A stretch of 64,000 nucleotides of DNA, taken from positions 2,790,001 to 2,854,000 of the forward strand of contig OY727096.1 of the NCBI GenBank assembly GCA_963402885.1. Reading direction: 5' to 3'. Below the pieces are notes generated by a model, which worked only from the letters and a program-made list of their open reading frames with translations, did no database searches and was not told the origin of the DNA. Below are positions 125 through 63,419 of the stretch, piece by piece. The position numbers and the translations under genes were made by a program. Origin of the DNA: Antedon bifida (taxonomy: Eukaryota > Echinodermata > Crinoidea > Comatulida > Antedonidae). Each line of letters begins with the position of its first letter. The stretch's first letter is position 1.

Positions 125-255
125 TTTGTCAAAAAATGTGCCCATACATGGACATGATGATGTCATATCACTAGTACCCTATTTGGGTATATCACTGCCA
201 TATTTGGGCACATCACACTTTTTTGTCAAACTAGTTTGATAGTGTGGACAGTGTG
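125..255 (-). mobile_element. Family-A foldback MITE, left end lost
   Basis: Runs from AAAAAATGTGCCCATACATG to CTAGTTTGATAGTGTGGACA. One intact CArG box (CCATATTTGG). Confidence 0.75.
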
Positions 256-1157
256 AGCACTAACCCACTATAAATCAGGGCCATTATTAATCTGTAAGTA
301 AATAATAAATATACAACAGTATAATATCAAATTATTATGAGGAATATAAACATTTAATAAAAAGTATTACTTGTACCAACGGAAGAAGAAAAAGTATAAA
401 AACAGAACCTTATTTTCAAGGAATATTAACAGCACCATTTTTTAGCAGTTAAACTTGTTTTGTACTCAACAATTTTCACAATAATATTCTCAATTAACCT
501 CCATATATTTTCTTGAAAGCTGTTTTTAAAATATTTTCTTTTCAGTTTACAAGATAATGCTATACAAAAAAAAATAAAAATTGTATGCACCCTTTGATGT
601 TTTAGGCCAAATAAAAGTTAGTTTCATGTCCGAGATTTTAAATAGTTTGAAAGCGCTGTATAATAGAAAATGACATTTGGTATCAAAACAATTTAAGGTA
701 ATTAAATTTATCACAAACACTGTACTATATTTCATATTCCATCCCTACAGTTATTTATACCAGTAAAGATACAAGGACTGTCCTCCAAAATCAATTATTC
801 TAGACCTGGCCTAGCAAATATTTTCCAATTACATACATACTGTATGCCCAAACATTGTCATATTCAAGTATAATATAAACTCATTGTAAAATGCGTGGCC
901 CAGGCTTCGTGAGAGTACACCATCCCGGTTAAAATCACAATTTTCTTTTTTCAACAAATTAATACTAGTTTATGAGCTACTGCAGCAAAAATAGGATAAT
1001 TTACAATCAAAATAACAACACACAATATACTTTGTATTAATACCATTCTAAATACTGTATTGGAGAGCTTTCTAATATACATGCTCAATAGACGTAGATA
1101 GATACACACTAAATGGAGGTACACTCAATACGTCCTATATTTAATACACAGCAATGT
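256..1157. other. Probable 3' UTR/downstream region of the first gene
   Basis: AT-rich with no recognisable exon. It follows the stop at 1158 on the minus strand, so part of it is likely 3' UTR. Confidence 0.35.
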
Positions 1158-1936
1158 TTAAGCATCAGAATCTGATCTTGGTGAGGTCAGTGGGGAGCTG
1201 CTTTGATCCGATCCCGGAGCCCCTTGTGGTGAGAAGTCAAAATGTCTTTGCTCTGCGCCAACTTGCTTAACATCAGCCTGTGTGGTTGGTACACTTATGC
1301 CTGGGTTACTGAATGAACGAAAATACTGGTACATCTTGTTCAAAGGAGACACTACAAGTAGGAAGAATTAGTAAAATAAATGTAAAACAAGTGAAAATTC
1401 CCAATTTATTAAAATAAAATATCATTTTAAGCAGATCGCCAAGGATATCCATTACGTGAGTTTTCACTATCCATCTGAAAGCTGGCAACCTTGTCTCACA
1501 AGATACTTTATACACAAAAGTTTTATTACTTATATTTTATACTTTAATACATGGTAGCCATCTTTGGGATTTGAACCCAAGACTCTAGGGTAGCCAGACA
1601 TCTTAACCACAAAGATAACCTACACTGCCTTTAGTAAAAACAAAAACAAAACAACTCAGCCCTAATAATGTCTATGAGGTTTATATACTTTTTAAATTGT
1701 TATTTTACCACAAAGATAAAAATAGATAAAAACATACAGGGCGGGGTAGGCGACCCAATTGGCGAACCGATGGGTGTGGTTGGCATGGCCTTAGCATGGC
1801 AGCCATCAATTTCACTCCTATTGGAGTTGATGTCCATCTCCTGCGACTGCTGCCTTTTCTGTATCTGCTGATACTTGCGTAGACTTGAATGGCAACTTCC
1901 TGGTGCCACAAACATGCTTGGAGGAATCGTAGCCAT
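1158..1936 (-). CDS. Short Ser/Pro-rich protein, unrecognised (2 coding exons)
   Basis: Two coding exons: 1738-1936 (ATG at 1936) and 1158-1351 (TAA at 1158-1160). The donor after 1738 reads GTATGT and the acceptor before 1351 reads TTGTAG. Together they encode 130 aa, a multiple of three. The protein is hydrophilic. Near residue 20 it has a Gln/Arg-rich stretch (KYQQIQKRQQSQE), then a run of Ser/Thr-Pro sites (MPTTPIGSPIGSPTPPLSP) joined across the intron, then MYQYFRSF and an acidic Ser-rich tail. No membrane span or catalytic motif is visible. The clustered SP/TP sites suggest a proline-directed kinase substrate (inference). The frame stays open from the acceptor at 1987 to the ATG, so the protein could start further upstream. 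I do not recognise the family. The exon pair and splice sites are well supported; the function is not. Confidence 0.6.
1543..1625 (-). mobile_element. tRNA-derived SINE head
   Basis: On the minus strand, A box TGGTTAAGATG (1599-1609) and B box GGTTCAAATCC (1567-1577), with a perfect T-arm TTGGG/CCCAA around a 7-nt loop. The anticodon arm has a 5-nt loop and the acceptor stem is poor, so this is a SINE relic rather than a working tRNA. It lies in the intron between the two coding exons of the first gene. Confidence 0.6.
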
Positions 1937-2070
1937 GACAAAATAAATAATTTTCTTATTTCTAGAAACAAATTTGGCACAAATTAACTGAAAGAGAAAG
2001 AAAACACATTTATTAAAAAAATAATTCAATTTAAACTTAAAACTTGCAGGTCAAATGAGCCATAGTGTCT

Positions 2071-2223
2071 TAAGCTCTGTCTACACTATCAAATTTAATG
2101 TGATGTGCCCATATATGGACATGATGATGTCATATCACTACAATATTTGGGCATATTACTACCATATTTTGGTACATCAAACTTTCTTTGTCAAACTAAT
2201 TTGATAGTGTAGACAGAGCTTAA
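2071..2223 (-). mobile_element. Family-A MITE, full length
   Basis: Both ends present: TAAGCTCTGTCTACACTATC and GATAGTGTAGACAGAGCTTA. CCATATATGG intact; the second CArG unit has seven A/T. Confidence 0.9.
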
Positions 2224-2350
2224 GTTCTGATCTTTCGATTAAATTCTATTGAATGTGTGATAAAGAAAAATTAAACAATTAAAATATTATTTCTATATCT
2301 ACTTACCTTATATACTGTACTTAATTAAAATATGTTGAGATTATGCGCAA

Positions 2351-2466
2351 TTAATCTGCCTCGCTAATCCTTGTTCTCAAGAAATATTGCAACCAGTCGT
2401 CGTTGCAACATCCAGTGACTCCTGACATCAGCATCAAACTGGTAACGCTTAACAACTTAGCGAGTC
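2351..2466 (-). other. Possible extra exon of the 1-8 kb gene
   Basis: A pyrimidine-rich acceptor on the minus strand ends at 2467 (TTTTGTAG). It is followed by an open frame of 37 codons, starting LAKLLSVTSL and containing CCNDDWLQYFL, that stops at 2351-2353. I see no good GT donor before the stop. It may be an alternative terminal exon, a 5' UTR exon with an unseen donor, or chance. Confidence 0.25.
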
Positions 2467-2584
2467 CTACAAAAAAAAAATTATATACTGTTATATATAT
2501 AATATATTTAAATCCAAAGGCAAATTTCTGAAAAAATCAGTGGCTGGATCTCAATGGAGATAAAAAAAAAAAAGCAAAAAGCTA

Positions 2585-3117: not shown

Positions 3118-3203
3118 TAAAGCTCTGTCTACACTATCAACTAGTTCGACAAAAAGTGTGATTTGCCCAAATATGGTTGTGATAGGCTTAAATATGGTAG
3201 TGT
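3118..3203 (+). mobile_element. Family-A MITE, left half only
   Basis: TAAAGCTCTGTCTACACTAT through CCAAATATGG; breaks off after the second unit. Confidence 0.8.
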
Positions 3204-3454
3204 TAACTTGAACGAAGGAAATGTAAAAAGAAATCAATAGTAGAAAACTGTGTCTTACAATACTGGTACGGGTATTACAGTACTGGATACTACAATATAA
3301 AGAATTGTTTGTTTGTCAGACTACTGGTGGTGAATAATAGAGATCATGGTCCCTAATAGTGCCAGTTACTTTAATCAATAAAACATATTGTCATGGATGA
3401 ATCTAGCCAAAAGGCTTGAATGGGTGCCAATTATTGTAGTGCAAGTTTTAATAT

Positions 3455-3630
3455 CTACAGTACACTATCAAACTTTATGTGACAAAAAAATGTAAAGTGC
3501 CCATATATGGACATGATGATGCCAAATCACTACCATATTTAAGCATATTATCAAGTGATACCATACCATATTAGGGCACATCACACTTTTTTTGTCAAAC
3601 TAGTTTGATAGGGTTGTAGACAGAGCTTAA
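3455..3630 (-). mobile_element. Family-A MITE with internal expansion
   Basis: The right end has a small insertion (GATAGGGTTGTAGACAGAGC). An extra ATTATCAAGTGATACCATAC sits between the central units. Confidence 0.82.
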
Positions 3631-4105: not shown

Positions 4106-4270
4106 TAAGCTCTGTTTACAATATCAAACTAGTTTGACAAAAAAAGTGTGATGTGCCAAATATGGCAGTGACATGCCCACATATGGTAGTGATATGACAT
4201 CATCATGTCCATATATGGGGACATCACATTTTTTTGTCACATAAAGTTTGATAGTGTAGACAGAGCTTTA
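4106..4270 (+). mobile_element. Family-A MITE, full length, two units
   Basis: TAAGCTCTGTTTACAATATC to GTAGACAGAGCTTTA. CCAAATATGG and CCATATATGG are intact. Confidence 0.9.
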
Positions 4271-7869: not shown

Positions 7870-8070
7870 CATGTTCATTCTATTCATAGCATTCACAGTA
7901 GCATGTACGCTGAGTGTGTGTAACATTATCTTCATCATCTATACCCATTTTTAATCAATGATAAATCCTACTCCTTCCTGCTCTAAAGATTTCACAAAAA
8001 CAGTTTATTAGCTAGTTCACCGCATGTAGTCTAGTCGTTCAGCGTCAATTGCGGATCCATGGCAACCTAC

Positions 8071-8611: not shown

Positions 8612-8787
8612 TAAAGCTCTGTCTACACTATCAAACTAAAGTGTGATGTGCCCAAATTTGGTAGTGATATTCCCAAATATGGTACAGTGATGTTACAAAA
8701 TTTGGTAGTGCTATGACATTATAATGTCCGTATATGGACACATCACTTTTTTTTTGTCACAAGAAGTTTGATGGTGTAGACAGGGTA
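8612..8787 (+). mobile_element. Family-A MITE, three units
   Basis: Lacks the CTAGTTTGAC inner segment. Units read CCAAATTTGG, CCAAATATGG and a decayed CAAAATTTGG. Confidence 0.88.
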
Positions 8788-9353
8788 TGACAAAATGCAA
8801 TTTTGGGCTACATGAAGGCTCCTCTTTCTAATGTCTTTTTAATTTAAATTTTTTATTTATTTTGAAAAAATTTAAAAAGCATGTATGTAATCAGCAATTA
8901 CAGTAAATGCAGTGTATACTCATGAATAATTTATTCATGAAAAACAATTTATTGCTTAACTAAATATTTTTATGACTTTTATGTCTTTGTCTATCAATCT
9001 TAATTAATCGACCAGAACTCATATTGGGCTCTTTTTGTTAAGAGAAAATACTATGAACATAAATTTTTTAATTTTTATCACATATTATTAAATTTATATT
9101 TTAAATGAAACCTACATTTTGTAAACTCTCTTCTCATTATGGGATATAAAGTTCAATTTAATAATATTTCATTTGTATTGCACAACTCAAAACTACTGTA
9201 TGATATTCATAAATCTCAGACATGATCAACCAATTGAGCTTGGATAATTACCTGGCATTTTATTGACTACAATTCTATATGCTTGTCTACAGGTGAAATA
9301 ACAAATGGTGATTTTGAAGGATATTTATACTAGGTAAGTTGAGCTGGTAGGCT

Positions 9354-9541
9354 TAATGCTCTGTCCACACTATCTTTATTTTTTCCTCCATGATCAAACT
9401 AGTTTGACAAAAAAAGTGTGATGTGCCAAAATATGGTAGTGATATGCCCAAATATGGTAGTGATATGACATCACCATGTCTATATATGGGCACATCACAT
9501 TTTTTTGTCACATAGAGTTTGATAATGTAGACAGAGCTTTA
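9354..9541 (+). mobile_element. Family-A MITE with a 20-bp insertion in the left TIR
   Basis: TTTATTTTTTCCTCCATG splits the left terminal repeat; the remainder is standard with two units. Confidence 0.87.
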
Positions 9542-13951: not shown

Positions 13952-16900
13952 TTAATTTGATGGAGGTGGTGGTGGAGGTGCTGGTGCTCCAGGGAGGGGA
14001 GGAGGTGGCACTCCCGCTTGTGAAAACTGTGAGAAGTCCATAGGAGGTGGAGGCTGGTTAAATGCCATGCTTGACATTGTAGATGGAGGTGGCCCTGATG
14101 GCATTGGAGGCTGGATGGGTGGAGGGGGAATACCAGGGGGTGGGCCTGGTGGAGGCATGGAGATAGGCATTGGGGGCATGGCATGCCATGGGGGTAAATT
14201 TGCCATCATATTTTGAAGTGACTGCGCTGATACGGTTGAGCTGGAGACAGACTGTGCTTGCGTGGTTGAATCTGAGGATGCTGAAAAAAATTAAATAAAT
14301 ACAAATTAATAACATATATTTTGTTTTTATTGGTATAACTAAAGCTCTGTCTACAATATCAAACTAGCTTGACAAAAAAGTGTGATGCGCCCAAATATGG
14401 TGGTGATATGCCCAAATATGGTAATGATATGACATCATGATGTCTATATATGGGCACATCACATTTTTTTGTCACATCAAGTTTGATAGTGTAGACAGAG
14501 GTTATTTTCTAATTTATATTCTCTGAGCAGAAAAACAAAACACACACTAAATAAAATACAATTAATTGAAAGATACATGGCTATACTTAGTAAATACTAA
14601 TAATTTTCAGATTTAATATTTAAAAAGAAAAATGCTTTAAGATATTGGGGAAAAAAATAGATATAGTATTATTTTTAATTTTAAATTGTTTTGTAGAATA
14701 TGCTGTGACCATTTAGAAACAAATTTGTTTTATCTAATAAAGTTTAGTAATAGATATATTCTATATAATAAGTAGATAGTCCGGGAAAGCAGATTTTGGT
14801 CTGGGCTAGTAAGCTATTAGTCTTGTGAAACTTGAATTCTAATAATCAGAAACTCTTCCAACACTTTTAGGCTCCAAAGGTCAACATTTACTGATTTAAA
14901 ACACATTTTGAAAATCGGGACATTATGTCCCAGGAAGTTCGGTATGGGAAGTGGAAAGATACGGGTTGCTACAAAACAATTGAATGGAGGGCTAAAATTA
15001 TAGGCTTACAAAATACATGCAAAGCTTTACATTATATACAGAGATGACTTGCACTAGCAAAGGAACACACAGGGAGGTCCCTGGAATAGGCAGGGAGGCC
15101 CCTGGAATAGCTAACGCAGGGAGGTCCCTGGAATAGGCAGGAAGGTACCCTGGAATAGCCAACGCAGGGAGGTTCCTGGAATAGCTAACACAGGGAGGTC
15201 CCTGGAATAGGCAGGGAGGTCCCTGGAATAGCTAACACAGGGCGGTCCCTGGAATAGGCAGGGAGCTCCCTGGAATAGCTAACACAATTTAGATCAAAAC
15301 CAAATACAGGAAGGAGTATCACATGTAGCAAACATATTTAAACACAAGGTCAAGTTTTCTGTGCTTATACAATTAAGCTCTGTCTACACTATCAAACTTA
15401 ATTTGACAACAAAATGTGATGTGCCCATTTATGGGCATGATGTTGTCATATCACTACCATATTTGGGTATATCACTATCATATTTAGGTACATCACATTT
15501 TTTTTTGTCTAACTAGTTTGGTAGTGTAGACAGAGCTTAACACGCAGGATGAAAATCAAAGTGCAGGCACTAAACAAATTTAGGTCATATTAGGGTAAAA
15601 CATGTCAGTATAAAAACAATCCATAATTCAGTCTCCACTATCAACTATGTTGCTAAATATAGCAAAGGTGGACATATTGAAAAACAAAAGAGCAATTAAC
15701 GTAAAAAGCAAAACCAAAAAAACCATAAAAATATATTAAAATTAATATTTGAAATATTTGGCGGGAACCGTTCATGCATGATAATATATGCCACACAATA
15801 TATTGCCAATACCTTGTAGCCAGGGTGGCGCTGTGGTAGAGGAACTGGGTGATACAGATAACCCTATGTAGAAAGACATAGTACACTTGAAACCAACCAT
15901 ATAGGTATATACATCATTATCTAGTTTTACAACATACATTTGATACCAACCATATACATCATTATAACATGGGTTCGAAGATGTAGCCAATCAGACATGC
16001 TGAAATGAGTCACATGTGTGCCTTTTTTTTACTATTATGCACTGTGCAAAAAGTGCGCAGCAAAAAAGCATAACAGCACTCTGCATGTAAATTATTGCAG
16101 AATACCAATTGCGCTAGATACCAACAATATCATATGTAAATCAGTTTTAGCTCATTTGAACTAAAAAATACATTTTGTATGTTGTTGCATGGTTAAATTT
16201 GTCAAGGCAATATAACAGAATGCTGGGCTTCTGAGATCAAAGGGTTTACCTGTGGCTGCGACAGGATCAGTTCCAAACCTCTTTACAGACACTGCGCGCC
16301 GCGGAGAATTATCTACATAGTAGATGTCGCAGCCAGACATAAGATCAAAGGACTGCTACGAGTTCATAACTTGGCAAGGCGAGCTCAGTGTCCTGTTGTT
16401 AGATTGCCTTGGTTTTGTTGTCTTTGTTTTGTAATTTATAAAATACACATATTTCAGAACCTTAAATATCAGTATAAAAGCAACATTTCATTTTTATAAT
16501 TTTATATTGAAAAGACAGGGGTTTGTGCAAGGTAGCTGATTCGAATAGAAACAAGATTAGTGCATTTAAACCAATATTCTTAATCAAATCAATTAATTTC
16601 CTGGAAAGTCTGAAAATTAATTAGATTTTGTAAGCTAAATTCCTGTTTACAGCATAACAAGCCATGCTGTAAATCAAAGTCACAGTCCCTAGTAATAGTT
16701 CACATGGTCATTTATTAAAAATGTTTAAAGATGTATTGTCCCCAAAAACATGAAAATTAATATTAATAAAATCAGACTTTGAATAGGTTATTAGGTAGTA
16801 GTCAACCACTTACATAGAAAACAATGTTTTCACAAAAAGGACAAAAAAAAAAGGGTTAAATTTAAGCAAAAACCCATTGGCTGCCAGGTAATTTGACTAT

Positions 16901-31931: not shown

Positions 31932-32068
31932 GTAAAGCTCTGTCTACACTATCAAACTTTATGCGACAAAAATGTGATGTCATCACTATCATATTTGAGC
32001 ATATCACTACCATATTTGAGCACATCACACTTTTTTTTTCAAACTAATTTGATAGTGTAGACAGCTTA
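31932..32068 (-). mobile_element. Family-A MITE, no intact CArG
   Basis: The first central block (CCATATATGG) is deleted. The units read CATATTTGAGC, losing the final GG. Confidence 0.85.
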
Positions 32069-32556
32069 AAAGACAAATTACACACAAAAACAAATTTCTA
32101 AGGGAAAGTTTTATCAATTTTATTCCAGGTATTTAACTATAAATAAATATTTACATATATATCACATATATTATATGATAATTCATATAAAATACTACTA
32201 TTGGAAATAAAACATAAAATACAAATAAAAATATTATAATAGTAATATGTTTTGATTTATTACTTAAGTGTAAAGATTTTTATTAACAATAAATACCTAT
32301 CTTTAATCAGTGCATATATTTTTATTTTGTTTATGTAAAAAAAAAATCATATGTACAAAAGTCCAGCTTATTTGTTTTCGTCTTTTGTTAATTAATTCAA
32401 TTCCTTTTCACATTATCCTTACTGTATTTGGCACTGAATACACTGAGCTTTCTCTATATTCCAAAATATATTCATACAGTATATACTCCCAAGGCTTGGC
32501 TTAAATTTACTATACCACTACATTGCGGTCTACACCACAGTAGTTATGCTGTATCA

Positions 32557-32637
32557 TAAAGCTCTGTCTACACTATCAAACTTTATGTGACAAAAAAAAT
32601 ATGATGTGCCCATGGACATAGTGTAGACAGAGCTTAA
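32557..32637 (-). mobile_element. Family-A MITE, 81-bp internal deletion form
   Basis: Both terminal repeats are intact but the tandem units and the right inner arm are gone. Confidence 0.85.
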
Positions 32638-32713: not shown

Positions 32714-32853
32714 TAAAGCTCTGTCTACACTATCAAACTAGTATGACAAAAAAGTGTGATGTGCCCAAATATGGTAGTGATATGACATCATCATGTCCAT
32801 ATATAGGCACATCACATTTTTTGTTGTCACACAAAGTTTGATAGTGTAGACAG
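32714..32853 (+). mobile_element. Family-A MITE, one unit
   Basis: TAAAGCTCTGTCTACACTAT to GATAGTGTAGACAGAAATG; the last bases have decayed. It ends just before the candidate WDR48 poly(A) signal, so it is near the 3' end of that gene. Confidence 0.86.
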
Positions 32854-32878
32854 AAATGAAGAATATGGTCCCTTTTCT

Positions 32879-45000: not shown

Positions 45001-48000
45001 GAACCAGGGGTAGAGCTAGGGGTGGAACCAGGGGTAGAGCTAGGGGTGGAACCAGGGGTAGAGCTAGGGGTGGAACCAGAGGTAGAGCTAGGGGTGGAAC
45101 CAGAGGTAGAGCTAGGGGTGGAACCAGGGGTAGAGCTAGGGGTGGAACCAGAGGTAGAGCTAGGGGTGGAACCAGGGGTAGAGCTAGGGGTGGAACCAGA
45201 GGTAGAGCTAGGGGTGGAACCAGGGGTAGAGCTAGGGGTGGAACCAGCGGTAGAGCTAGGGGTGGAACCAGGGGTAGAGCTAGGGGTGGAACCAGGGGTA
45301 GAGCTAGGGGTGGAACCAGAGGTAGAGCTAGGGGTGGAACCAGAGGTAGAGCTAGGGGTGAAACCAGAGGTAGAGCTAGTGGTGGAACCAGAGGTAGAGC
45401 TAGGGGTGGAACCAGGGGTAGAGCTAGGGGTGGAACCAGGGGTAGAGCTAGGGGTGGAACCAGAGGTAGAGCTAGGGGTGGAACCAGGGGTAGAGCTAGG
45501 GGTGGAACCAGGGGTAGAGCTAGGGGTGGAACCAGGGGTAGAGCTAGGGGTGAAACCAGAGGTAGAGCTAGTGGTGGAACCAGAGGTAGAGCTAGTGGTA
45601 GAACCAGGGGTAGAGCTAGGGGTGGAACCAGGGGTAGAGCTAGGGGTGGAACCAGAGGTAGAGCAGGGGTGGAACCAGGGGTAGAGCTGGGGTGGAACCA
45701 GAGGTAGAGCTAGGGGTGGAACCAGGGGTAGAGCTAGGGGTGGAACCAGGGGTAGAGCTAGGGGTGGAACCAGGGGTAGAGCTAGGGGTGGAACCAGAGG
45801 TAGAGCTAGTGGTGGAACCAGAGGTAGAGCTAGGGGTGGAACCAGAGGTAGAGCTAGGGGTGGAACCAGGGGTAGAGCTAGGGGTAGAACCAGGGGTAGA
45901 GCTAGGGGTGGAACCAGAGGTAGAGCTAGGGGTGGAACCAGAGGTAGAGCTAGGGGTGGAACCAGGGGTAGAGCTTGGGTGGAACCAGAGGTAGAGCTAG
46001 GGGTGGAACCAGAGGTAGAGCTAGGGGTGGAACCAGAGGTAGAGCTAGGGGTGGAACCAGAGGTAGAGCTAGGGGTGGAACCAGGGGTAGAGCTAGGGGT
46101 GGAACCAGGGGTAGAGCTAGGGGTGGAACCAGAGGTAGAGCAGGGGTGGAACTAGAGGTAGAGCTAGAGGTGGAACTAGAGGTAGAGCTAGGGGTGGAAC
46201 CAGGGCTAGAGCTAGGGGTGGAACCAGGGGTAGAGCTAGGGGTGGTCCCAAGGGGTAGAGCTAGGGGTGGAACCAGAGGTAGAGCTAGAGGTGGAACTAG
46301 AGGTAGAGCTAGAGGTGGAACTAGAGGTAGAGCAGGGGTGGAACCAGAGGTAGAGCTAGAGGTGGAACTAGAGGTAGAGCTAGAGGTGGAACTAGAGGTA
46401 GAGCTAGGGGTGGAACCAGGGCTAGAGCTAGGGGTAGAACCAAAGGTAGAGCTAGGGGTGGAACCAGGGGTAGAGCTAGGGGTGGAACCAGAGGTAGAGC
46501 TAGGGGTGGAACCAGGGGTAGAGCTAGGGGTGGAACCAGGGGTAGAGCTAGGGGTGGAACCAAAGGTAGAGCTAGGGGTAGAATCAGAGGTAGAGCAGGG
46601 GTGGAACCAGAGGTAGAGCAGGGGTGGAACCAAAGGGGTAGAGCTAGGGGTGGACCCAAGGGGTAGAGCTGGGGTGGAACCAGGGGTAGAGCTAGGGGTA
46701 GAACCAAAGGGGTAGAGCTAGGGGTGGACCCAGAGGTAGAGCAGGGGTGTGCACTTCAACTCTTTTGACACAGCAAGCAATATATTATGAACTACTTTTT
46801 TATTCTATTTTTGACAGGCTTGATTAATTAATATTATTAAGTTATTATATTAATATTTAATAAATCCTAGATCCGCCTCTAGATTATAGTTTAAATATGT
46901 GTGATTGATTGATTATTTTTTATTTATTTTTTTATTGTATACTTGCTCAATAGATACTTTTTTTTAGCAATTGATGTAGAAAAGATTGTAATATCTCATA
47001 GATTGATGATTTCTGATTTAAATAATTGATTGATATTGATTGAATTTACAGGAAGTCGTTCTTTTACTAATTCAACATGGTGCAGATGTGAGTATAGTAA
47101 ATGGTGAAGGACTAACAGCCAGAGATGTAGGATATGGGGAGGATATTGTTAACATGTTAGATGGTAAGTAAAGCTCTGCCTACACTATCAAACTAGTTTG
47201 ACAAAAAAGTGTGATGTGTCCAAATATGGTAGTGATATGACATCATCCTGGTAAGTCTTATTTTTCCACCAATGATAAATAAGATTGGTTAAAGATGTAT
47301 TGTCCCCCAAAAACATGAAAAATGAAGATTAATAAAATCAGACTTTAAAGATGTATTGTCCCTTGAAACACAAAAAAATGAAGGTCAAAATATTCTAAAT
47401 GTAAATTGGCCATATCAAAGTAATATTAAAGTTATTCACTTTAAGTCGAAAATTCGAGCCAAAAACAACAAGTTTATGTAATTAACAGGTAAATTAGTTT
47501 GATTACATTTCGTCTGGAAAATCGTCGCGAGCGAAAGTAAACAAAGACTTCAAACCACGAGTACGCATTATGCATATGCTAATTAGGATTGTTTACAACT
47601 TGTCACAGTTGAAAAGGTATTTTCACACAGATCGTGAGAAAGTTTTATGAAATATGCATACAGAGTAGCCAAACAAGCGCGTTTCATTATGGGATATGTT
47701 TTGATCGAAAACTTTGACTGGAAGTCAAAGTTATTTTTTTAACAAAAAAACGTCTGTATTTCAGTTAAATGATTTTTTTTTTCAACAAATTTTTTGTGAA
47801 AGTTAATAACTATTATGATACTTCAAAATGACCCACCTTTTTTTGAAATCTTTTATTTTTTATTTTTTTGAAATTAGTCAAAGGGACAATACATCTTTAA
47901 GTAGGCCATTTTGCAGTTTTTATAAAGTTATTCACTTCTGTAAAAAAAAAAAGAAAAAAAAGATAATTATTTCACTTATAAAAAGACAAAATAAACGTTA

Positions 48001-51000
48001 AATTTTAACCAAAAACCATTTTTTGGAAATAATCTTTTATGATTTGATTTTGAATAGAACTACATTCTGTACATTTAAGGTTCATAGCTAGCTAGCACCA
48101 GAAAATTAAATATGATTCACTACAAGTCTTCCGTTAATATTTGATGGTTCTGTCCCAAAAAAACCATTTTAACCAAAACCACTTGAGTGTCTTATTCAAC
48201 AAAGCCGAGTTGAAAAGAGCAGTCTATATAGTTTTTCTGTCTGTATTCTGTAATAGTTTACTGAGTGTATGAGATGAATATAAATTGTACTGAAACTGTA
48301 ACATAAGCCTTTTCATATTAAAATGTATGAACATTGGTCATGGTCCAATGATTTTGCATTTAATAATAATGAATGTGAAAATTATCATGTTAACATTATA
48401 TTCTCAACCTCTTTATTTGCTGGTGTCCTTGTTTTACTTGTTTCTGAAATTATTCCTTGCATAATCTGGTATTTATAATTGTTTATTTTTCAACATTAGT
48501 ACCACTGATTTGTATTTTTCCTTTTCAGCTGCACAACAATCTTTTAAGCTAAAGACCGAGAAAACGCTATTAGCAGCTGCTAGGGAGGGTGACGTCGAAA
48601 GCCTGAAACAGCTTGTAAGTAAACTGCTTTCTTTGCAAAATTTAGGATATCATGACATTCCATTGACATGATCCCTAAAGCTCTGTCTACACTATCAAAC
48701 TTTATGTGACAAAAAAAATGTGATGTACCCATATACTGTATGGACATCATGATGTCATATCACTACCATATTTGGGCATATCACTACCATATTGGGGCAC
48801 ATCACAATTTTTTTGTCAAACTAGTTTGATAGTGTAGACAGAGCTTAAGTGTGAATTGTGGATACGACCATTGCACTTCAAAAAAGTTTCAATTTTTGTT
48901 TTAAGAGAGTCCTTTTTCAAAGAGTTCCTAATTTGAGAGTTGTGTATATCTTTTGTATAATTTCACAGTTTACCTTTAACATAAATTTCACTGATTAATC
49001 TCCTTTATTTATTCCGGATATGCATGATTGCTTCCTTTACAGTTAAGGTCAAAGGTTAACTGATCTCAAAGCTTAAAGTTATTTATGTATATAATAGGGA
49101 ACTTTAGTAAAGATCAAGAGATTATCTAGGAATTCTAACATTCTAATAAAAATGTTTTTTGTGTCTATAATAATAGGTGTTAAGTGGTAACCCACCTAAC
49201 ATAAATTGTTCTGACGCAAACGGAAATACTCCCTTACACTGCGCTAGTTATCGAGATCACAAAGAAGCGGCCGTGTTGCTGTTACAGTGCGGGATAGACT
49301 GCAATATGAAGAACAGTCGAGGGCAGACTGCTCTCGATCTCGCACAGACGACAAAGATGAAACAGCTACTTGATGTGAAACCCGTTAAGGTATTTTTTAT
49401 TATCTATTTTGAACAATATTACCAAAGGTAATACAGGTAGTACTGATGTTTATACTTTTGTTAATATTCGACTAAACCTTGTCTACACTATCAAACTTAA
49501 TGTGACAAAAAAATGTGATGTGCCCAAATATGGACATGATGATGTCATATACAGTCGGAAAGCCGCGTTGGTAACGCATCACTGATTTCATTCATTGTGA
49601 GGGCGCGCTTCGTGGAAAATGTTGGAATTTTTGCTATTTTAGTACACTTAGAAAATGGTATAATTTTGATATTAAATGAAATCAATAAACGTATTTCAAT
49701 AGTTGAACTACAAGCGTAAATAATGATAAAAACTGTGATCTAAATTCCACAGATTTTTTGTTTCAAGAAATATCATTATTTTATGTATAAACTTTTTTAC
49801 TTTAATTTTTTTTTAAATGATGGTAAAAAATCATTAAATTTTATATTTTCTAGATAAGGTTTCAAAGCAAATTTAAAATCCTTTCAAGATAAACTATTAA
49901 GCTATCTATTAAAATAAAAATCTAATTTTAAGCTTTCTTGGGATGCAACTCCCACTAATCAAACCAAACCTACTACATTTCTGTTCTGTTTCGATCGAAA
50001 AATCGCCATTTTGAAACTTTGTTTACGTTTTACGAAGCTGGTACGAATCGTCCCGGACCGAATCGTGTCTGTGTTCAATACGGTTTTCATGCAGGCGTAT
50101 TACGTCATAGGCCTAAGATTTCAATTTGCTCACCGATTATTGTTCTATTTGGTTTCTGAGCTAGGAAAGGCTACCTACTATAATTACTTACTTGATTTCT
50201 AGCCTAGCTAGGCCTAAAAATAGTATTTTCTAGGCCTAGCTAGGCTGAGTAATTCTGATATAATACTAATAGGTAGGCCTACCCTAGTGAGTGTTAATAA
50301 TAGTAGCTGGGTATTCTATAGTCTAGGCTGGTGGTAGGTCTATCCCAGCTCTGCTCATATACCAAGCAAGAAGAAGCCTGAAGAAGCCTGAAGGAGAAAC
50401 TAGAGGCCCAGAACAAATAAAAAACTGTTAAAAAAACAATAAATGGAAAAATAAAAATAAATAACCCATTTTCAATTTATATATGGGGAATGTTTTATAA
50501 AATCGGGCATGTTTGTTTCAGAGACTCAAACGTGTATTTTTATATGGTCATGTTTTAAAAAAAGATAATTATGGGCCCAGCTGAAACCAAGATATAAAAA
50601 TATAAGTCCATCATTTACTTGTATATAAATATTACTTTATTAGATACAACTTGCATTTCACACAAGCAACCAATTTTTTTTTTACGTATACAGAATGTGA
50701 AAAAGCAGTTTTTAATACAAATATCTTTCAAACAATACTGATATAAATAGTAAATACTACTACTACTGTATATATTATTTAAATAGCACCTTGTTCATCA
50801 AACATAACAAACTAGCTAGGCCTTAGCCTATATCATATTAACTTACGTGAGTCTTACGGTTGTACTGATTTTATGATTGTTTTATATGTTTATATTGTAT
50901 GTATCTGTGTGACTCTGGTTAATAAAGTAAATCAATCAATCAATTGCAACTTAATTTATATCTTATCATTGACTGATCTGAAACGCTTCTAAAACTTGAA

Positions 51001-54000
51001 TGCGCATGAATGTATATGTTATATTATTATTAGCGAATAAAATGAAAAACTATCAGCTGCAGCAATGATATTGAAATCGAGAAAACCATTACAGCTTCCA
51101 CCGTCCAACCTCATATTGAAGAACGAGACAGAAAATCGTCGAGTCTTGATACCAACAAAAAACCTAAAATGAAAATGAATAGCTGAAATGTAATGAATGA
51201 AACTATTTAAATAATTGTCACTATGATATGAACAAAACATTGCATCGTTATACAGTATAATTATTCAACAACCTGAAAACATTTTCAGATATAGGCCTAC
51301 CATGAAAAAGCAGCAAATACAAAATTTCCTTATGTCTGTTTATTGTAATAATTATTAATATTATAAATAAATTGTACCCCTCAGTTGTCAATAATTTTAC
51401 TATAAATAAATATTTAACTATATAGAATAGGTAGGCCTATACCTGTATCAGGCTGCGATTTGCTTAATTATCTTTTTAAAACTTCCCAATGCATCTTCAA
51501 TATAGAGTAGGATTGTAACGATACTTTAATAATACTAAATTGTAACTAAAGTATTTAAATTATTAACAGAACATGTTACTAGGCCTAGGCCGATATAATA
51601 CGACAACGATCCACCAGGTCGTGCATATACTCACCTACAACAACCACAATCAACACACCATGCACCACACACGACGGAACTAGTGCCGCGAGACGTAACA
51701 ATATATGACATGAGGACCTTTTTTAAAATGTTCGCTATAGGAAGCTTAAATAGGGTTTCAAGCCAATTTTAACGTAAAACAGACTATTGATACTTACTCT
51801 ATCCATATACGTCGGTTTTTTGGTAATTCACTGTATGGGATGCAAATCCCACTAATGGAAAATTTGTAAACAAACACCTGTTAGAAAACTTCAGTTTTGA
51901 CGGACGCACACGAACTTTGGAAAGAAATTGTCGCTGACAACAAATCCAACAAATTATTCAGAAAATTAGGTGACCTGCGACATCTTAAACATATAAGGAA
52001 CTGATCTTACCATATATGGTTAATTTTTCGCCTACTAATGTTTATTAAACAGCTATTAAATGACGTATACTTTATGCTAATGTTTTCGCGCGAAACGTTG
52101 ATGCTTCTGTGCCGAGAGAGGGCTTCTAAAATTTATGACGTCATGCGAAGTCGAAAATTCAGCAATAACGGTCATATTTCCCAACGCGGCTCTCCGACTG
52201 TATAACTACCATATTTGGATACATTACTACCATATTTGGGCACATCACTTTTTTTGTCACATTAAGTTTGATAGTGTAGACAAAGCTATACATTATATTT
52301 GTTCTAGTTACACTCTCGCACTGCTACCTTTGTTTCTGTATGCTTACTGTACATTTGATTAAAACTAAATTAAATAATAAACTAAAATTAATAAACAATT
52401 TGAATCAAATGGATTTATCTCGCTTTGAATTGGTACTCGCATTGAATCTATACAGTAATTTGTTTAAATGCCACTGTCTCTATTCTCTAATATTTTTTTA
52501 ATTTAAAATAAATGAATGTATGAGACATATAATTTTTACCGAAATTGTTACATTAGCCTTTTCATATTAAAATATACGAACGTCGGCCATGGTTCAATGA
52601 CTTTGCATAATATAATAATTATGTTGACTTAACCTTGCAATATATTGCAAAATATTATACTAATGCATTTTATATATGCCATTTATTGTTATCATTTGCT
52701 GCCGCTATACATTGAGAAGTCAAAATAAATTATATATAATATTTCTAAATTATGATATTTTTATTGATTCCAGACAATTCAGAAAAGTGTGGATATGTTT
52801 GAAGGGCAATTATACAAGGTACATTTTGTCGCTTTCAATACTTTTTCCTTAATGTTTATCTAGTGTCATAGGCAAATTCGGTAATACAGTGTCACATATG
52901 TATCACATGTGATGCCTGTATCATGTAAGGTTAGGGCTAGCTTATGATCACATGTGATGCCTGTATCATGTAAGGTTAGGGTTAGCTTATGATCACATGT
53001 GGTGCCTGTATCATGTAAGGTTAGGGTTAGCTTATGATCACATGTGTTGCCTGTATCATGTAAGGTTAGGGTTAGCATATGGTCACTTATGGTACCTGTA
53101 TCATGTAAGGTTAGGGTTAGCCTATGGTCACATGTGGTGCCTGTATCATGTAAGGTTAGGGTTAGCTTACGATCACATGTGTTGCCTGTATCATGTAAGG
53201 TTAGGGTTAGCATATGGTCACTTATGGTACCTGTATCATGTAAGGTTAGGGTTAGCCTATGGTCACATGTGGTGCCTGTATTATGTATGGTTAGAGTTAG
53301 CCTATAGTCACATGTGGTGCCTGTATCATGGAAAAGTAGGTTATAGATGATACTGGAAACATTTAGATAAAGTACCAAAAATCGTCTTAAATTGTCATAA
53401 TAAAGATTGGAGAAAAAGCACATTCCAAAATTATAATTATTTTCTTGTTCAATTTATATTATTTTTTTAATTTAATATTTACAATTTGTTTTCATAGAAG
53501 TCACGGTGGATTGGCGGCTTAAAATCACACTGGGTGGTTGTTGATAAGGGAGTTATCAGTTATTTCAAAAGAAGGTAATTTCTTAATTATTTAATAGTTC
53601 ACTCCCAAAAAGAGCAATCCAATCACTTTTAGGAGATTATAAATAATATAACAATAGAAAAGACAATGTACCTGCAAACATAACAATAAATCCCCCATTT
53701 GAACATAACTAAATTAACTTAAAATACTTCTTTCTTTTATAAAGAGCTGATGCTGTGTCTGGTGTAAAGAGACAAGGTTTCAAGTACTTAAACCAAGCTA
53801 AATTTAAGGTAGTTCTTTATAATCATTATGATGTCCCTTTGGTTCTTTAAGTTGAAATTAAGTAAATATGTTGATCTTTTTATTGGAGAATATTATTTTA
53901 TTTTTATCTACTTTTCTATAAATTATAACCTCTTGAAGTCTAGTTTGATATTTAATTACAGTATTTCTTTTTTTTTTGCAATAGTTATATTGTTTTTGTA

Positions 54001-56141
54001 TGTATTTTTAAAATAAAGATACCTTTAAGCTCTGTCTACACTATCAAACTAGTTTGAAAAAAAAGTGTGATGTGCCCAAATATGGTAGTGGTATGACATA
54101 TCCATATTTGGGCACATAAAGTTTGATAGTGTAGACAAGGCTTTATAAATGAATATTGTTGTTTGATAGATTAATAAAGATGATTCAACAAGCTTTGCAG
54201 TGCAATATGCAGATAGGTCTAGTCACATTTGGAGTGTAGCCCAGGATGGGCAATCAGCCTTCATATCACGCCAGGTGAGGGCAAACATGATCATTTTGAT
54301 GCTGTTTTAATATTATGTCATTGTTGGCATCGTAAAAGTATCTAATTATCAACTTCATTGTCATTAACAACATTGTCAAGAACATCATTACTATGTCTTC
54401 ATTATCATTAATAATATTGGTATCAACATCATTGTCTATATCAATTTGAATTGATTGGCTGAGCTGCAAACCATAGAAAAGTGTGATGTACCCAAATATG
54501 GTAGTGATATGCCCAAATATGGTAGTGATATGCCCAAATATGGTAGTGATATGACATCATCATGTCCATTTATGGGCACATCACATTTGTTTGTCACATA
54601 AAGTTTGATAGTGTAGCTTTTACATCATTTATGATGTGATTTCTTGTCAGAAATTCATATTAATGTATTTTTTTTTTCAGAAATGGTTAAATATATTGTA
54701 TGAACACTGTGAATACAGCAACCATTATACAAAGTCAGAGCCAATGGATGATGAGGATATAGAAGACTTAAAGCCATTAGGTTGTATTCAAGATGTACTT
54801 CAGGTATCTATATAATAATGGCACTATCCACAATCCTTTGTATCTTGTTACTGCATCTATCCTAAACCTCAAGACTGACACTTAAAGCCATCTCAGACAT
54901 CGTTAAACGACAAGGCCCGACAAATGTCTTGACTCGTCGGTGCTGTCTGAGTTGCAGCGCGAAGAGGCGAGTCATGAGATAGCGTTGGCTGTTGTTTTTG
55001 AGTCGTCAGAAGAACTTTAAACATGTTTAATTTCCTCCCAACGAGACGACTTGTCGTACGATGATGTCTGAGTTGGCCTTTAATCATGACGATTTCCCCC
55101 TGAAAAACCAATTCCTTTGCTACATCCAAACGCTCAAAATGAACTAGAAAATTCTCGACTCATCATTACACAATTTCCTACTCTTTTACATTACTTTTTG
55201 TGTATACCAAACAAACCAACAGCTTAACATCCCATCTGAAGATTGAGGTACAGTAATGAGAGTAAAATATTTTGGAGAAGGTGGCACTGCTTGAACTTTG
55301 ACAATGTCTGATACATGTCTCATACTCTCATTTTCTGTCTTTATAATTTTGGTAAGAGGGAATTTACTAATCTTATTAATTTGTTTCAGGTTGCAAATGC
55401 ACATAAAAATTTACTAGAGCAGCAAGTTGAAGGGCTTCAGAAGTTCTTAGACCAGCAGAATGCTGCCGCTTCACAGCAGAAATCACATAGTTTAAAGAGT
55501 AATTTAAAACAACAGAGTAGTAAGTATTTCGAAATTCCCTGTTTTTTTTATTTCTATGTATATTTATTTATCTTCTTGCTTATTCTATGCTATATTACTA
55601 AGTTCATAACTTGCATTTCCCTACTTATTTCTTCACTTTCTACTAACTGAAATAGCAAAAGCAATACATATCAATAAAATTAACATAATAAAAGGACATA
55701 AACAAAATGGCAAAACCATAAGAGATGGGCCACCATAAATCAGTATCTTGATATTATAAATAAAAGTTTATATTTTTAACAAATTATTTTCATGCCACAC
55801 CTCATATTCCTATTCCTTCCTGCTATTCCACATTTATATCTTGCTTGCCTCACTGCTGGGCCATACTACCTACTTCTCTGCTACAGTACTTCACACTTAT
55901 ATCTTGCTTACCTCACTGCTAGGCCTTACTACCTACTTCTCTGCTACACCGCACTAATATTTTGCTCACCTCACTGCTTACTGTACTTCTCTTGCTAGGC
56001 CTTACTTATTTGCTCATTTCTCTCGTAGACTTTCCTCTAACAGTTGAGATCAAGCAACTTGTTCAGCAGCTAGTGTGTAGTTCTAAAGAGATGTACAGTT
56101 CAATGACCCACTGCCTTCATATAATGACACAACAAGAACAG
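42002..56141 (+). CDS. OSBPL1A: Oxysterol-binding protein-related protein 1, long form (5' part)
   Basis: Long ORP1 sits on late endosomes and senses or transfers sterol. Twelve exons: 42002-42122, 42609-42769, 47052-47163, 48529-48614, 49177-49389, 52774-52818, 53498-53574, 53745-53808, 54170-54274, 54681-54803, 55390-55519, 56029-56141, totalling 1350 nt, 450 codons in phase. Ankyrin repeats: GWTPLHLCCYFGHLEVATIL about 48-80, DTPLHRAAYTGRMEVVLLL about 81-114, and NTPLHCASYRDHKEAAVLLL about 178-210. A PH domain lies about 236-345 (MFEGQLYKKSRWIGGLKSHW to KWLNILYEHCEYS). A Gln-rich coiled coil follows, then EIKQLVQQLVCSSKEMYSSM as in human ORP1. The FFAT motif and sterol-binding domain are absent from the window, so the gene must continue past 64000 or be truncated. 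Intron 2 holds a 3.8-kb minisatellite. Confidence 0.93.
42092..42350 (+). repeat. Direct duplication of ORP1 exon-1 end with its 5' splice site
   Basis: The sequence from the end of exon 1 (TCAATTTGAACTGCAAGG|GT) into the intron is repeated about 121 bp downstream. The second copy has its own intact GTAAGT at 42244-42249, against the true donor at 42123-42128. The copies then run in parallel through TTCC...TTTGCATAA...TTAAGCTAATCT. Confidence 0.85.
42195..42222. repeat. 28-bp perfect palindrome
   Basis: TATCATGGAACTAT followed directly by its reverse complement ATAGTTCCATGATA. It lies exactly between the two copies of the ORP1 exon-1 duplication. Confidence 0.9.
42981..46749 (+). repeat. 3.8-kb G-rich 24-bp minisatellite in ORP1 intron 2
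   Basis: About 157 tandem units of 24 bp, each two related 12-mers: GGGGTAGAGCTA and GGGGTGGAACCA. Common variants change the GGGG after CCA to GAGG, GCGG or AAGG. Rarer forms include GGTCCCAAGG in place of GGAACCAGG, and units one base short. Near 46145-46400 a GAGG/CTAGAGG subtype dominates. Because 24 is a multiple of three, long frames stay open on both strands; they are not genes. The array lies between ORP1 exons 2 and 3, and the G-rich strand is the sense strand of the pre-mRNA. Confidence 0.97.
47169..47250 (+). mobile_element. Family-A MITE starting inside the ORP1 exon-3 donor
   Basis: Left half only. The first T of TAAAGCTCTG is the sixth intron base of the GTAAGT donor at 47164-47169. 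Confidence 0.88.
47289..48012 (-). mobile_element. Family-B MITE (outer), split by an inserted copy
   Basis: 47289-47344 is the start of a reverse copy (TTAAAGATGTATTGTCCCCC to ATCAGACT). Its continuation GTAGGCCATTTTGCAGTTTT resumes at 47901. The gap is exactly filled by a second element flanked by TTAA. Confidence 0.8.
47345..47900 (+). mobile_element. Family-B-related element (inner), 556 bp, inserted at TTAA
   Basis: Ends TTAAAGATGTATTGTCCCTT and GGGACAATACATCTTTAA. It is longer than the other copies and has a unique interior with GGAAAATCGTCGCGAGCG and CATTATGGGATATG. It sits within the outer copy, with TTAA on both sides where intact copies have a single TTAA (for example in the mirror of 24105-24427). 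Confidence 0.82.
48676..48848 (-). mobile_element. Family-A MITE, ORP1 intron 4
   Basis: Full length with two units; starts 61 bp after exon 4. Confidence 0.9.
49473..49551 (-). mobile_element. Family-A MITE, left half (split by 2.65-kb element)
   Basis: TAAACCTTGTCTACACTATC to GATGATGTCATATA, where the TIR of the inserted element begins. Confidence 0.87.
49552..52200. mobile_element. 2.65-kb terminal-inverted-repeat element, non-autonomous
   Basis: The left end CAGTCGGAAAGCCGCGTTGG and the reverse complement of the right end match at 19 of 20 positions. TATA (or TA) flanks both ends (49548-49551, 52201-52204). It splits one family-A MITE in two: the left half ends at 49551 and the right half resumes at 52201. 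CAGT termini with a TA-type target are typical of Tc1/mariner/pogo elements (family knowledge). No transposase frame is visible, so it needs a helper. A 21-bp motif based on GGGATGCAA.TCCCAC occurs at 49939-49959 and 51836-51856. ATTAATAAAGTAAATC plus (AATC)n at 50920-50944 looks like the tail of an inserted retroelement. Confidence 0.85.
52201..52290 (-). mobile_element. Family-A MITE, right half (split by 2.65-kb element)
   Basis: TATAACTACCATATTTGG to GATAGTGTAGACAAAGC; completes the copy begun at 49473. Confidence 0.87.
52894..53335 (+). repeat. 45-bp minisatellite with telomere-like core
   Basis: About ten units of 45 bp in ORP1 intron 6. Nearly every unit contains GGTTAGGGTTAG, two TTAGGG hexamers, next to CACATGTG and CTGTATCATGTAA. 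Units 53038-53172 and 53173-53307 form a 135-bp higher-order duplication of three variants. Confidence 0.93.
54026..54145 (+). mobile_element. Family-A MITE, ORP1 intron 8, inner right arm deleted
   Basis: Both ends are present. It ends 25 bp before exon 9. Confidence 0.87.
54477..54620 (+). mobile_element. Family-A MITE, three perfect CArG units
   Basis: The left terminal repeat is lost. CCAAATATGG occurs three times at 21-bp spacing, then CCATTTATGG. The right end is cut inside GATAGTGTAG. Confidence 0.88.
54882..55083. mobile_element. 202-bp MITE with TTAA ends (family E)
   Basis: Terminal inverted repeats of about 33 bp: TTAAAGCCATCTCAGACATC at the left, and the right end reads TTAAAGGCCAACTCAGACAT when reverse-complemented. 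TTAA at both termini suggests a piggyBac- or Kolobok-type target. It is in ORP1 intron 10. Confidence 0.8.
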
Positions 56142-61063: not shown

Positions 61064-61225
61064 TTAAGCTCTGTCTACACTATCAAACTTTATGTGACAA
61101 AAACATGTGATGTGCCCGTATATGGACATGATGATGTCATACAGTAGCACTACCATATTTAAGCATATCACTACCAATAGGCATATCACACTATTTTTGT
61201 CAAACTAGATTGTGATAGAGCTTTA
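61064..61225 (-). mobile_element. Family-A MITE, decayed CArG units
   Basis: Left end intact, right end shortened (GATTGTGATAGAGCTTTA). Confidence 0.84.
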
Positions 61226-61278
61226 GATAGTAAATAAGCTATACACTGTACAATAATTTAATAGCATAGGATCTTATA

Positions 61279-61486
61279 CAGTAGAACCCCCTCTTTTTGG
61301 GACACCCCTATTCAGCGGACACCCCTATTCAGCGGACACCCATTGGGACACTTGACACGTGATTCGAATGAGGAACAATGTTAATACTATGGACAACCCA
61401 TATTCAAGGGACAACTATTATTCATCATTAAGGGAGAACACTTTAGGGTCCTGAGTGTCTCCTTAGTAGGAGTTCAAATCTACCTG
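61279..61486. mobile_element. Tigger/pogo-like MITE
   Basis: Starts CAGTAGAACCCC after TA (61277-61278) and ends GTTCAAATCTACCTG before TA (61487-61488). It contains a duplicated GGACACCCCTATTCAGC. The CAGTAGAACCCC start with TA targets is typical of non-autonomous pogo/Tigger elements. A decayed relative may lie at 36455-36545. Confidence 0.55.
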
Positions 61487-61892
61487 TATGATTAAAATGT
61501 CGCATCACGATCAGATCATTTATTCCTATTGTATTTTGCAGTAGCATAGAAACTGTACAAATAAACATCAACATATAATTGTTTTGTGGGATTGTTTTCA
61601 TGTCTTTTCATAAAGTAATGCTTTCTTTTATTAACTGTAATAATGTTTTATTTAACACGTACATATTTTTGAGTCAACGGCATGACCTTTGTCAGACTGT
61701 AAACATACTTTGTACCGTGGATTGCGTTTAAAATCAATGTAGCAACTCCAAAGTAAATTAACGCAAATTTGTCATAAGCATACAATGCAATAACAATGAA
61801 TAATGGTTCAAATATCGGCCATTTTGTTTGTATGCTTTGCCATTTGGGACATAAAACTGTTTGTATACCATTTACATTACAATATTGATGCC

Positions 61893-62059
61893 TAAAGCTC
61901 TGTCTACACTATTAAACTAGTTTGACAAAAAAAGTGTGATGTGCCCAAATATGGTAGTGATATGCCCAAATATGGTAGTGATATGATGTCAACATGTCCA
62001 TATATGGGCACATCACATTTTTTTGTCGCATAAAGTTAGTAGTGTAGACAGTGCTTTAA
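61893..62059 (+). mobile_element. Family-A MITE, two units
   Basis: Close to the family consensus; three intact CArG boxes. Confidence 0.9.
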
Positions 62060-63262
62060 GGTATGATGTACAGAAAACTTTCTAAGCGGACCCCAAAATT
62101 TGAGAGGATAACCCTGGTTTTTGGAAAAATTTATTTTAAAATATTTTTGTAGTTTAATAGACTTTACTGTATAGTATTGCTTGGAAAAAGTTGCAAGTTT
62201 TCAGTAAATTGTGAATAAAAAATAACTGGATTTTACTAAAGGGGAGATCCCTATAAAGTACTCTATCAAACAAACAAACAAAAACAAACAAGTATGAATT
62301 GTGAGGCATTTTAAGCAACAATGTACAAATTTGATTTCCTAAAAATTCCTTTTCTTTTCACAGCCTAGTTTAAACATTTTGATTATTGCAATTCTAGTAG
62401 ATTGAGCAATGGCCGCTACTGTTGCCATAGAGATGTTTATGTCATTTGATGCTGGTAACCAATTGTGTTTAATGATATTATGTATAACTTAACTAAATTT
62501 ACTTTTCAAAACCAAATACCAGCAATATATTAGTATTGTAAGTTAATTGATTTTGCATGACAAGTGAAGGTAATCATATACGCTAGTTTCCCACACCTTC
62601 CATTTTGAATTTGTTTAGTATCACCGTTCGTAGATTTTTATTTTTCAATGTAGTGTCTTAAATGATGCTATAGATCTAATCATGGAGATTTCTCCATGAT
62701 CTAATGAACAAAACCAGATTACAATTCAATTTCTATTAAAGATAAGACTATCGTTATTATTTTTGACAGTTTTTATATCTAAAGTTCTTAATTCTATTTA
62801 ATTTTGCCATTTTTTGTATGTTTCATCTTGTATTTTACTGTGTTTTTATGTATATATTTATAATATTTAAATATTTTTAAGGCATCCTATAATTGGCGAT
62901 TTTTTGCTTCATCTAAATGAAATAAAAATTTTAAAAAAACAATGTAATTTCTGTACCGTGTTCTTGTATAGTAATTGTAGAGTGTTTTATTTTCTCATGT
63001 CAATTAATTACCACTACCACAAATGTTTTAGTTGAAAATTAAACATAGTCTTTTTTTAAAAAGGGAAGGTCTTATCTGATCAGCATACACTTATATTTTA
63101 GTCATCAATATTTGCATACTGCCAGAAACGTACCATATTATTATCCTGGTTTATGATGATATAATGACTGTTAAAATATATGAACATCAGCATAATATTT
63201 CATTTCTTCGAATTGGTAATTCTTTGTTATTAAGAACAATTTTGTTTCTGTGTTTTATTTTA
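62060..63262. other. Non-coding region near the window end
   Basis: One dispersed repeat copy at 62770-62932. The rest is AT-rich with no supported gene. Confidence 0.4.
62770..62932 (+). repeat. Dispersed repeat, copy 2
   Basis: About 85% like 60650-60805 by eye. The GAAATAAAAA end suggests a retroposed 3' terminus. Confidence 0.75.
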
Positions 63263-63419
63263 TCTGTCTACACTATCAAACTAGTTTGACAAAAAAAGTC
63301 AGTGTGATGAGCCCAAATATGGTAGTGATATTTCCAAATATGGTATTGATATGACATCATCTGATGTCCATATATGGTCACATTACATTATTATAAGTTT
63401 GATTGTGTAGACAAGGCTT
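63263..63419 (+). mobile_element. Family-A MITE, two units
   Basis: Outermost left bases are missing; three intact CArG boxes. Confidence 0.87.

Follow-up and report, generated by a model that had tools for sequence, protein, structure and literature searches.

A short inverted-repeat transposon family carrying SRF-type CArG boxes in the genome of the crinoid Antedon bifida

Family A carries most perfect CArG boxes in the window

The 64,000-nucleotide stretch of the Antedon bifida genome analysed here (assembly GCA_963402885.1, contig OY727096.1, positions 2,790,001 to 2,854,000 of the forward strand; hereafter the window) is interspersed with copies of a short repeat, family A, that is built around perfect SRF-type CArG boxes, the decamers CC(A/T)6GG. 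Amplification of the element has raised the number of these boxes to tens of thousands across a genome of 315.6 Mb (27 contigs, eleven of them of 19–37 Mb). Family A is probably a non-autonomous cut-and-paste miniature inverted-repeat transposable element (MITE), ~163 bp long and most likely a member of the PIF/Harbinger (PHIS) group. The match between the inner end of its terminal inverted repeat (TIR) and an SRF site would be incidental, and its burst-amplified copies would be mostly inert or passively titrate SRF. A regulatory function of the boxes is the weaker reading.

The window contains 53 perfect CArG decamers; 49 lie inside 36 non-redundant matches to a family-A profile (E ≤ 1e-3; 4,722 bp) and four outside, and the reversed word GGW6CC, counted as a control, occurs zero times within the matches and three times elsewhere. 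The profile was built from 21 two-ended copies, with the end pairs 3120–3628, 9356–9539 and 32559–32635 left out. Since the box at 54492 adjoins a profile match and belongs to an additional tandem unit in the copy 54475–54616, 50 of the 53 boxes could also be counted within the element. The 36 matches represent 34 insertions, because 18952–19153 is counted as two matches and the segments 49474–49550 and 52201–52288 are one split copy; with three TIR-only remnants the total is 37. An initial annotation of the window had estimated about 37 copies or fragments with 45–50 boxes, and these counts agree with it. Its description of copies in both orientations, bounded by the terminal repeat AAGCTCTGTCTACACTATCA, is likewise upheld, the repeat being found at 27 places on each strand with up to three mismatches.

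The same enrichment is found in an unbiased sample of eleven 10-kb stretches from preset places on eleven large contigs (20 stretches were requested, nine of which did not exist). These hold 15 family-A matches with 21 boxes and a further nine boxes outside, and the reversed word occurs zero times inside and seven times outside. In the window and the eleven stretches taken together, the 6,480 bp occupied by the element contain 70 boxes and the remaining 167,520 bp contain 13. A larger set of 62 matches, consisting of those in the window plus loci L001–L021 (L022 was dropped because it overlaps L021), contains 80 boxes, compared to a mean of 0.46 and a maximum of 3 over 300 dinucleotide shuffles of each match.

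Allowing up to one mismatch, a genome-wide count of the 20-base TIR end gives 14,042 matches on one strand and 13,825 on the other, or 27,867 in all (control, 0). The window has 35 such ends for 36 matches, from which a very rough extrapolation gives a family of ~28,000–29,000 copies; the window is about sixfold richer in family A than the genome average. A 35-mer from the right arm is found at 11,260 places with up to three mismatches (control, 0). The word CCW6GG occurs 65,912 times in the genome, compared to 17,178 for the reversed word. Two decamers, CCAAATATGG (11,852 + 11,909 occurrences; control, 202 + 248) and CCATATATGG (12,736; control, 312), make up 36,497 of these 65,912 perfect boxes (55%) by word count, and their controls 762 of 17,178; the location of the decamers in family-A copies is seen in the window and the samples, not site by site genome-wide. 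Because two decamers account for such a share of perfect boxes, family A should be masked when this genome is scanned for SRF targets, even if its copies are inert.

Copies seem to prefer chromosome arms. Among the 100 listed exact places of the 35-mer on contig C1 (reaching 28.7 of 33.2 Mb), three lie in the 15–24 Mb block, compared to 31 expected by length, and 13 of the 18 transposase matches on that contig lie within it; the block was picked after the list had been viewed, and the comparison covers one chromosome only. The exact 21-base TIR was found in none of the stretches of a bacterial and archaeal collection and in none of a viral collection.

Structure of the element and origin of the boxes

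The family-A consensus is 163 bp long and has no coding capacity. Its size, below the ~600-bp limit applied to MITEs, together with its TIRs and high dispersed copy number, agrees with the definition of these elements. When the left arm is compared with the reverse-complemented right arm, the local alignment extends over 60 bp, which constitute the TIRs, and in both arms it stops with the final base of the CArG box. CCAAATATGG is present at consensus positions 51 and 72 and CCATATATGG at position 104, matching the earlier placement of the former in the tandem unit and the latter in the other arm. The second CCAAATATGG stems from the 21-bp tandem unit, which is present in ~1–4 units per copy in the left arm. 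Arm symmetry and tandem repetition imply that the boxes are one terminal-repeat motif that was copied, rather than three independent gains. The motif itself may well have arisen by chance, since at least one box is present in 0.9% of 20,000 shuffled consensus sequences. When folded as single-stranded DNA, one window copy has an energy of −48.7 kcal/mol, compared to an average of −15.1 for shuffled sequences (z, −11). Intact consensus decamers are retained at the three box places in 16/36, 31/54 and 23/44 cases.

The best-supported mechanism for the spread of the boxes is hitch-hiking, in which a CArG-like transposon end has been amplified. The decamer forms the inner end of each 60-bp TIR and is repeated with the 21-bp unit of the left arm; this inner end may serve the transposase or the structure of the end, and the match to an SRF site would then be incidental. 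SRF could presumably bind those copies that are accessible. Most copies would now be inert or passive SRF titrators, with a few perhaps co-opted near genes.

Probable assignment to the PIF/Harbinger group

Sequences flanking the GCTC...GAGC ends read TWAA on one side and TTWA on the other. TWA is present on both sides of 46 of the 69 two-ended copies, the two being identical in 30 of the 46 (p = 0.032). The near set, 38 copies from loci L023–L062 that were mostly fetched for their likeness to one window copy, includes 28 copies flanked by TWA at either end, with identical pairs in 21 of the 28 (p = 0.011). Beyond the TWA, the flanks show a bias that is symmetric about it, towards C on the left side and towards G on the right. 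These observations favour, without proving, the TWA duplication of PIF/Harbinger elements over the duplication-free insertion of the Spy group, both of which are described in PMC4482050. Family A resembles PIF/Harbinger MITEs in being short and non-coding, with TIRs, TWA flanks and AT-rich targets, and transposases of this class abound in the genome, where 150 matches to the Harbinger-type DDE_Tnp_4 domain were scored out of 215 candidates. One sampled element of this kind, L066, is 3.9 kb long, has TIRs of 75 bp and is bordered by TAA at either end.

Several results weigh against this assignment. First, among the 27 copies of the unbiased set (window and loci L009–L019), TWA flanks 15 copies on both sides and only 7 of the 15 pairs are identical (p = 1.0), so that target duplication is unproven and insertion of a Spy-like or other kind is possible. 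Second, no autonomous partner was found at ten transposase loci, one from each of ten of the 150 scored matches (four were examined over 6 kb and six over 1.8 kb on one side only); none has the family-A TIR as an end, although two, L064 and L065, contain ordinary copies of the family. Third, family A differs from known PIF/Harbinger MITEs in that its arms hold a CArG box and the 21-bp tandem unit; the two sibling elements sampled, L065 and L066, contain no CArG box, which speaks against a transposase-binding role of the box. Fourth, no empty site was recovered among 60 joined-flank queries against the sampled sequence, because the sole two matches across the joint both lie in family-A copies.

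A possible, though somewhat unlikely, alternative is that family A is a Spy-like member of the PHIS superfamily that inserts within AAATTT-like sites without duplicating its target. Spy elements prefer AAATTT and make no target duplication, according to PMC4482050 and PMC11304231. The AT-rich, AA..TT-like target read from the TWAA and TTWA flanks, and the disagreement of the flanking W bases in the unbiased set, would fit such an element. However, the flanking TWA agree in the near set, and the outer C and G are symmetric about the TWA. Foldback/Galileo-type elements also have inverted arms with internal tandem units, but are longer and of another superfamily.

Numerous near-identical Harbinger-type transposase matches are clustered at 21.5–22.2 Mb of contig C8, and each of them contains a single TAA.

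SRF and the lack of extra conservation of the boxes

SRF is encoded in the genome by two exons on contig C14, in which 33/34 and 51/54 aligned MADS residues (84/88) are identical to those of solved SRF. The specificity of SRF for CArG boxes is established; given this and the MADS identity, SRF would be likely to bind family-A boxes as naked DNA. A MEF2-like MADS exon is present on contig C15. The MEF2 motif is YTAW4TAR, and this pattern occurs zero times in the 62 family-A matches, compared to a shuffle mean of 1.1. The reading of the boxes as MEF2-like sites is therefore rejected, and the binding of MEF2-like factors put forward in the initial annotation is not borne out.

The slower decay expected of a selected regulatory site is not seen for the CArG columns. 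In the unbiased set (51 matches), 81 of 1,209 bases in CArG columns differ from the consensus (6.7%), compared to 232 of 3,693 in the other inner columns (6.3%; p = 0.59), and per-base rates predict 79.8 CArG-column substitutions where 81 are observed. In the near set (40 matches), the counts are 74 of 1,195 (6.2%; 64.2 predicted) and 177 of 3,601 (4.9%; p = 0.10), the direction being that of faster CArG decay; in the ten matches of the first C1 loci they are 17 of 224 and 54 of 710 (both 7.6%). Within the 62-match set, G/C columns vary slightly more in the box (67/583) than in the other inner columns (135/1,454; p = 0.14) and A/T columns slightly less (34/870 compared to 155/3,003; p = 0.15); changes that stay within A/T are not significantly favoured in the box (15/34 compared to 47/155; p = 0.16). 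Thus, in the average copy the CArG columns mutate like their surroundings, the outcome that the initial annotation had named, for older copies, as counting against its own proposal. Copies diverge from the consensus by a mean of 5.9%, and overdispersion of their ages is not significant (p = 0.22). This divergence fits one burst, and a split into older and younger copies is uninformative because copy ages do not differ measurably. The hitch-hiking reading has one point to concede here, namely that missing conservation does not exclude SRF occupancy, and a minority of copies near genes may have been co-opted.

Alternative roles of the boxes

Under a regulatory seeding scenario, family-A copies would act as SRF-dependent enhancers and would have rewired genes for actin, muscle or growth. 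The tens of thousands of perfect SRF-type decamers, the near-identity of the encoded SRF in its MADS residues, and the scarcity of the listed exact C1 copies in the transposase-rich block (3 of 100, with the block picked afterwards) are consistent with this scenario, and CArG boxes of PHERES1 that are carried by Helitrons, as described in PMC6914339, provide a plant precedent. However, the three sets give no extra conservation of the CArG columns and the 62 matches no MEF2 sites, and we consider the scenario unlikely. Of the initial proposal of a foldback MITE that seeds SRF sites, the scattering of perfect CArG boxes across the genome and the presence of SRF stand, and the MEF2 sites do not.

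With the same low probability, the copies may have no local effect and instead act as a sink that titrates SRF across the nucleus. The 36,497 sites of the two decamers, compared to 762 for their controls, would supply such a sink, and E2F sites on MITEs may dilute E2F, according to a review (PMC12595863).

In a composite reading that appears improbable, a MADS protein (SRF) would bind the inner TIRs and assist or time transposition, and over half of the perfect CArG boxes, mostly on chromosome arms, would now form an SRF sink and enhancer reservoir. About as improbable is the narrower proposal that the box itself functions in the transposon, where binding of the inner TIR by SRF or a different MADS protein would help transposition or set its timing. 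The position of the box at the exact inner end of both arms is suggestive of such a role, as is its spacing; of the 18 pairs of boxes that lie less than 100 bp apart in the window, seven are spaced by 21 bp, five by 32 bp and two by 53 bp, all near whole helical turns, and the other four by 65, 42, 26 and 34 bp. However, this spacing may reflect only the length of the tandem unit, the siblings L065 and L066 have no box, and broken boxes are common, although decay after insertion alone could explain the latter. Finally, the explanation that an AT-rich genome (window GC, 0.336) is naturally rich in CC(A/T)6GG words fits the sequence outside the element, where the box is about as common as the reversed word (13 and 10 in 167.5 kb), but is refuted for the density inside it by the shuffles and by the genome-wide word counts and retains next to no probability.

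Precedents and significance

The spread of a factor's binding sites by transposons is already known from plants. In Brassicaceae, E2F sites were amplified by MITEs (PMC12595863); as in the hitch-hiking case proposed here, a transposon family, there partly of PIF/Harbinger MITEs, supplies most sites of one factor. That case differs in host and factor and, according to the review, in that binding was shown, whereas family A is known from its sequence alone. In Arabidopsis, RC/Helitrons carry CArG-box motifs of PHERES1 (PMC6914339) and, like family A, spread the motifs of a MADS-box factor; the factor is a plant type I MADS protein and has ChIP-seq support, whereas family A is an animal MITE described at the level of DNA sequence. 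In the literature searched, no report was found of SRF boxes on an animal MITE, echinoderms included.

If SRF recognizes even some of these sites, a single parasite has altered where this factor can bind throughout an animal genome. Family A would then be an animal counterpart of the plant MITE E2F sites and Helitron PHERES1 boxes, and would offer a natural experiment on whether supplying motifs is enough to create regulation or only titrates the factor.

Family-A copies and other features of the window

Positions of family-A copies are listed in Table 1.

Table 1. Family-A copies, fragments and remnants in the window. Copies and fragments are profile matches; TIR-only remnants are weak profile matches only. 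Strand + means that the arm with the tandem unit comes first.
Feature	Position	Strand	Remarks
Copy, inner end lost	124..253	-	profile match
Copy, both TIRs	2072..2221	-	
Fragment, left arm and tandem unit	3120..3205	+	
Copy, one end shortened	3461..3628	-	adjoins fragment 3120..3205
Copy, both TIRs	4107..4268	+	
Copy, both ends	8614..8788	+	
Copy, both ends	9356..9539	+	
Copy, both TIRs	14342..14503	+	
Copy, both TIRs	15375..15538	-	
Copy, one tandem unit	18437..18578	+	
Copy, ~four tandem units	18952..19153	-	two profile matches
Fragment with left end	19730..19825	-	
Copy, both ends	20356..20520	-	
Copy, right end worn	22095..22243	+	
Copy, both ends	24671..24830	-	
Copy, both TIRs	24891..25032	-	
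Right-arm fragment	29265..29337	+	directly before Ras-like exon
Copy without CCATATATGG part	31935..32069	-	
Deletion copy, 77 bp, both ends	32559..32635	-	
Copy, one tandem unit	32716..32858	+	
Copy, both TIRs	33424..33545	-	
Fragment with right-arm end	34725..34832	-	
Copy, both ends	36206..36368	+	
Copy, both ends	37084..37232	+	
Copy, one tandem unit	37297..37437	+	
Copy, both ends	38748..38901	-	
Left-arm fragment	47171..47250	+	
Copy, two exact TIR ends	48678..48846	-	used as query
Copy, first part	49474..49550	-	split by later insertion
Copy, second part	52201..52288	-	second part of copy starting 49474
Copy, one tandem unit	54027..54143	+	
Copy, ~three tandem units, outer left end lost	54475..54616	+	
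Copy, one end worn	61066..61214	-	
Copy, both ends	61895..62056	+	
Copy, both ends worn	63259..63419	+	
TIR-only remnant	19864..19883	-	weak profile match
TIR-only remnant	39542..39561	-	weak profile match
TIR-only remnant	39756..39775	-	weak profile match

One copy is split by a DNA element of ~2.65 kb (49551–52205) whose inverted ends are CAGTCGGAAAGCCGCGTTGG and which is flanked by TA at either end; no frames longer than 94 aa were seen in it, and its TA target is reminiscent of Tc1/mariner. Two further dispersed repeats adjoin family-A copies. The first, containing GTGCACGTTAAAGAACTTGGTACACTATTCG, is present at 8540–8700 and 9350–9510 of locus L017 and at 4105–4260 of L010, where it starts 7 bases from a family-A copy, and is ~95% alike between the two loci. 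The second occurs near window positions 12800, 16716, 21155, 24427 and 47250, is common to L010, L017 and L021, and adjoins the truncated family-A copy at 47171.

Comparison of ten window reading frames to Pfam gave one Ras-like match and nine frames without a match, and Rfam and tRNA scans of the window gave zero matches. The match is an exon of a Ras-superfamily GTPase at 29345–29953 (Pfam Ras, E 3.8e-19), which is preceded by a family-A fragment and directly followed by a perfect 16-bp tandem array given as 29873–29953. A 3.8-kb array at 42985–46749 consists of ~157 copies of a 24-bp unit, is G-rich on the + strand and has several open frames, one of which encodes Gly-Arg repeats. Five further minisatellite arrays, at 5596–6090, 8068–8385, 13203–13562, 37934–38291 and 52897–53330, have units of 21, 36, 40, 97 and 45 bp, respectively.

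Outside the window, COX1 on contig C27 fits mitochondrial code 9, the code of echinoderms and flatworms, and its conservative sequence makes an echinoderm the likelier of the two. Compared with the mammalian COX1 chain 7o37_a, four of its five AAA codons stand opposite Asn, the exception being the one next to a gap, and its four AGA/AGG codons stand opposite Ala, Gly, Ala and Thr, never Arg.

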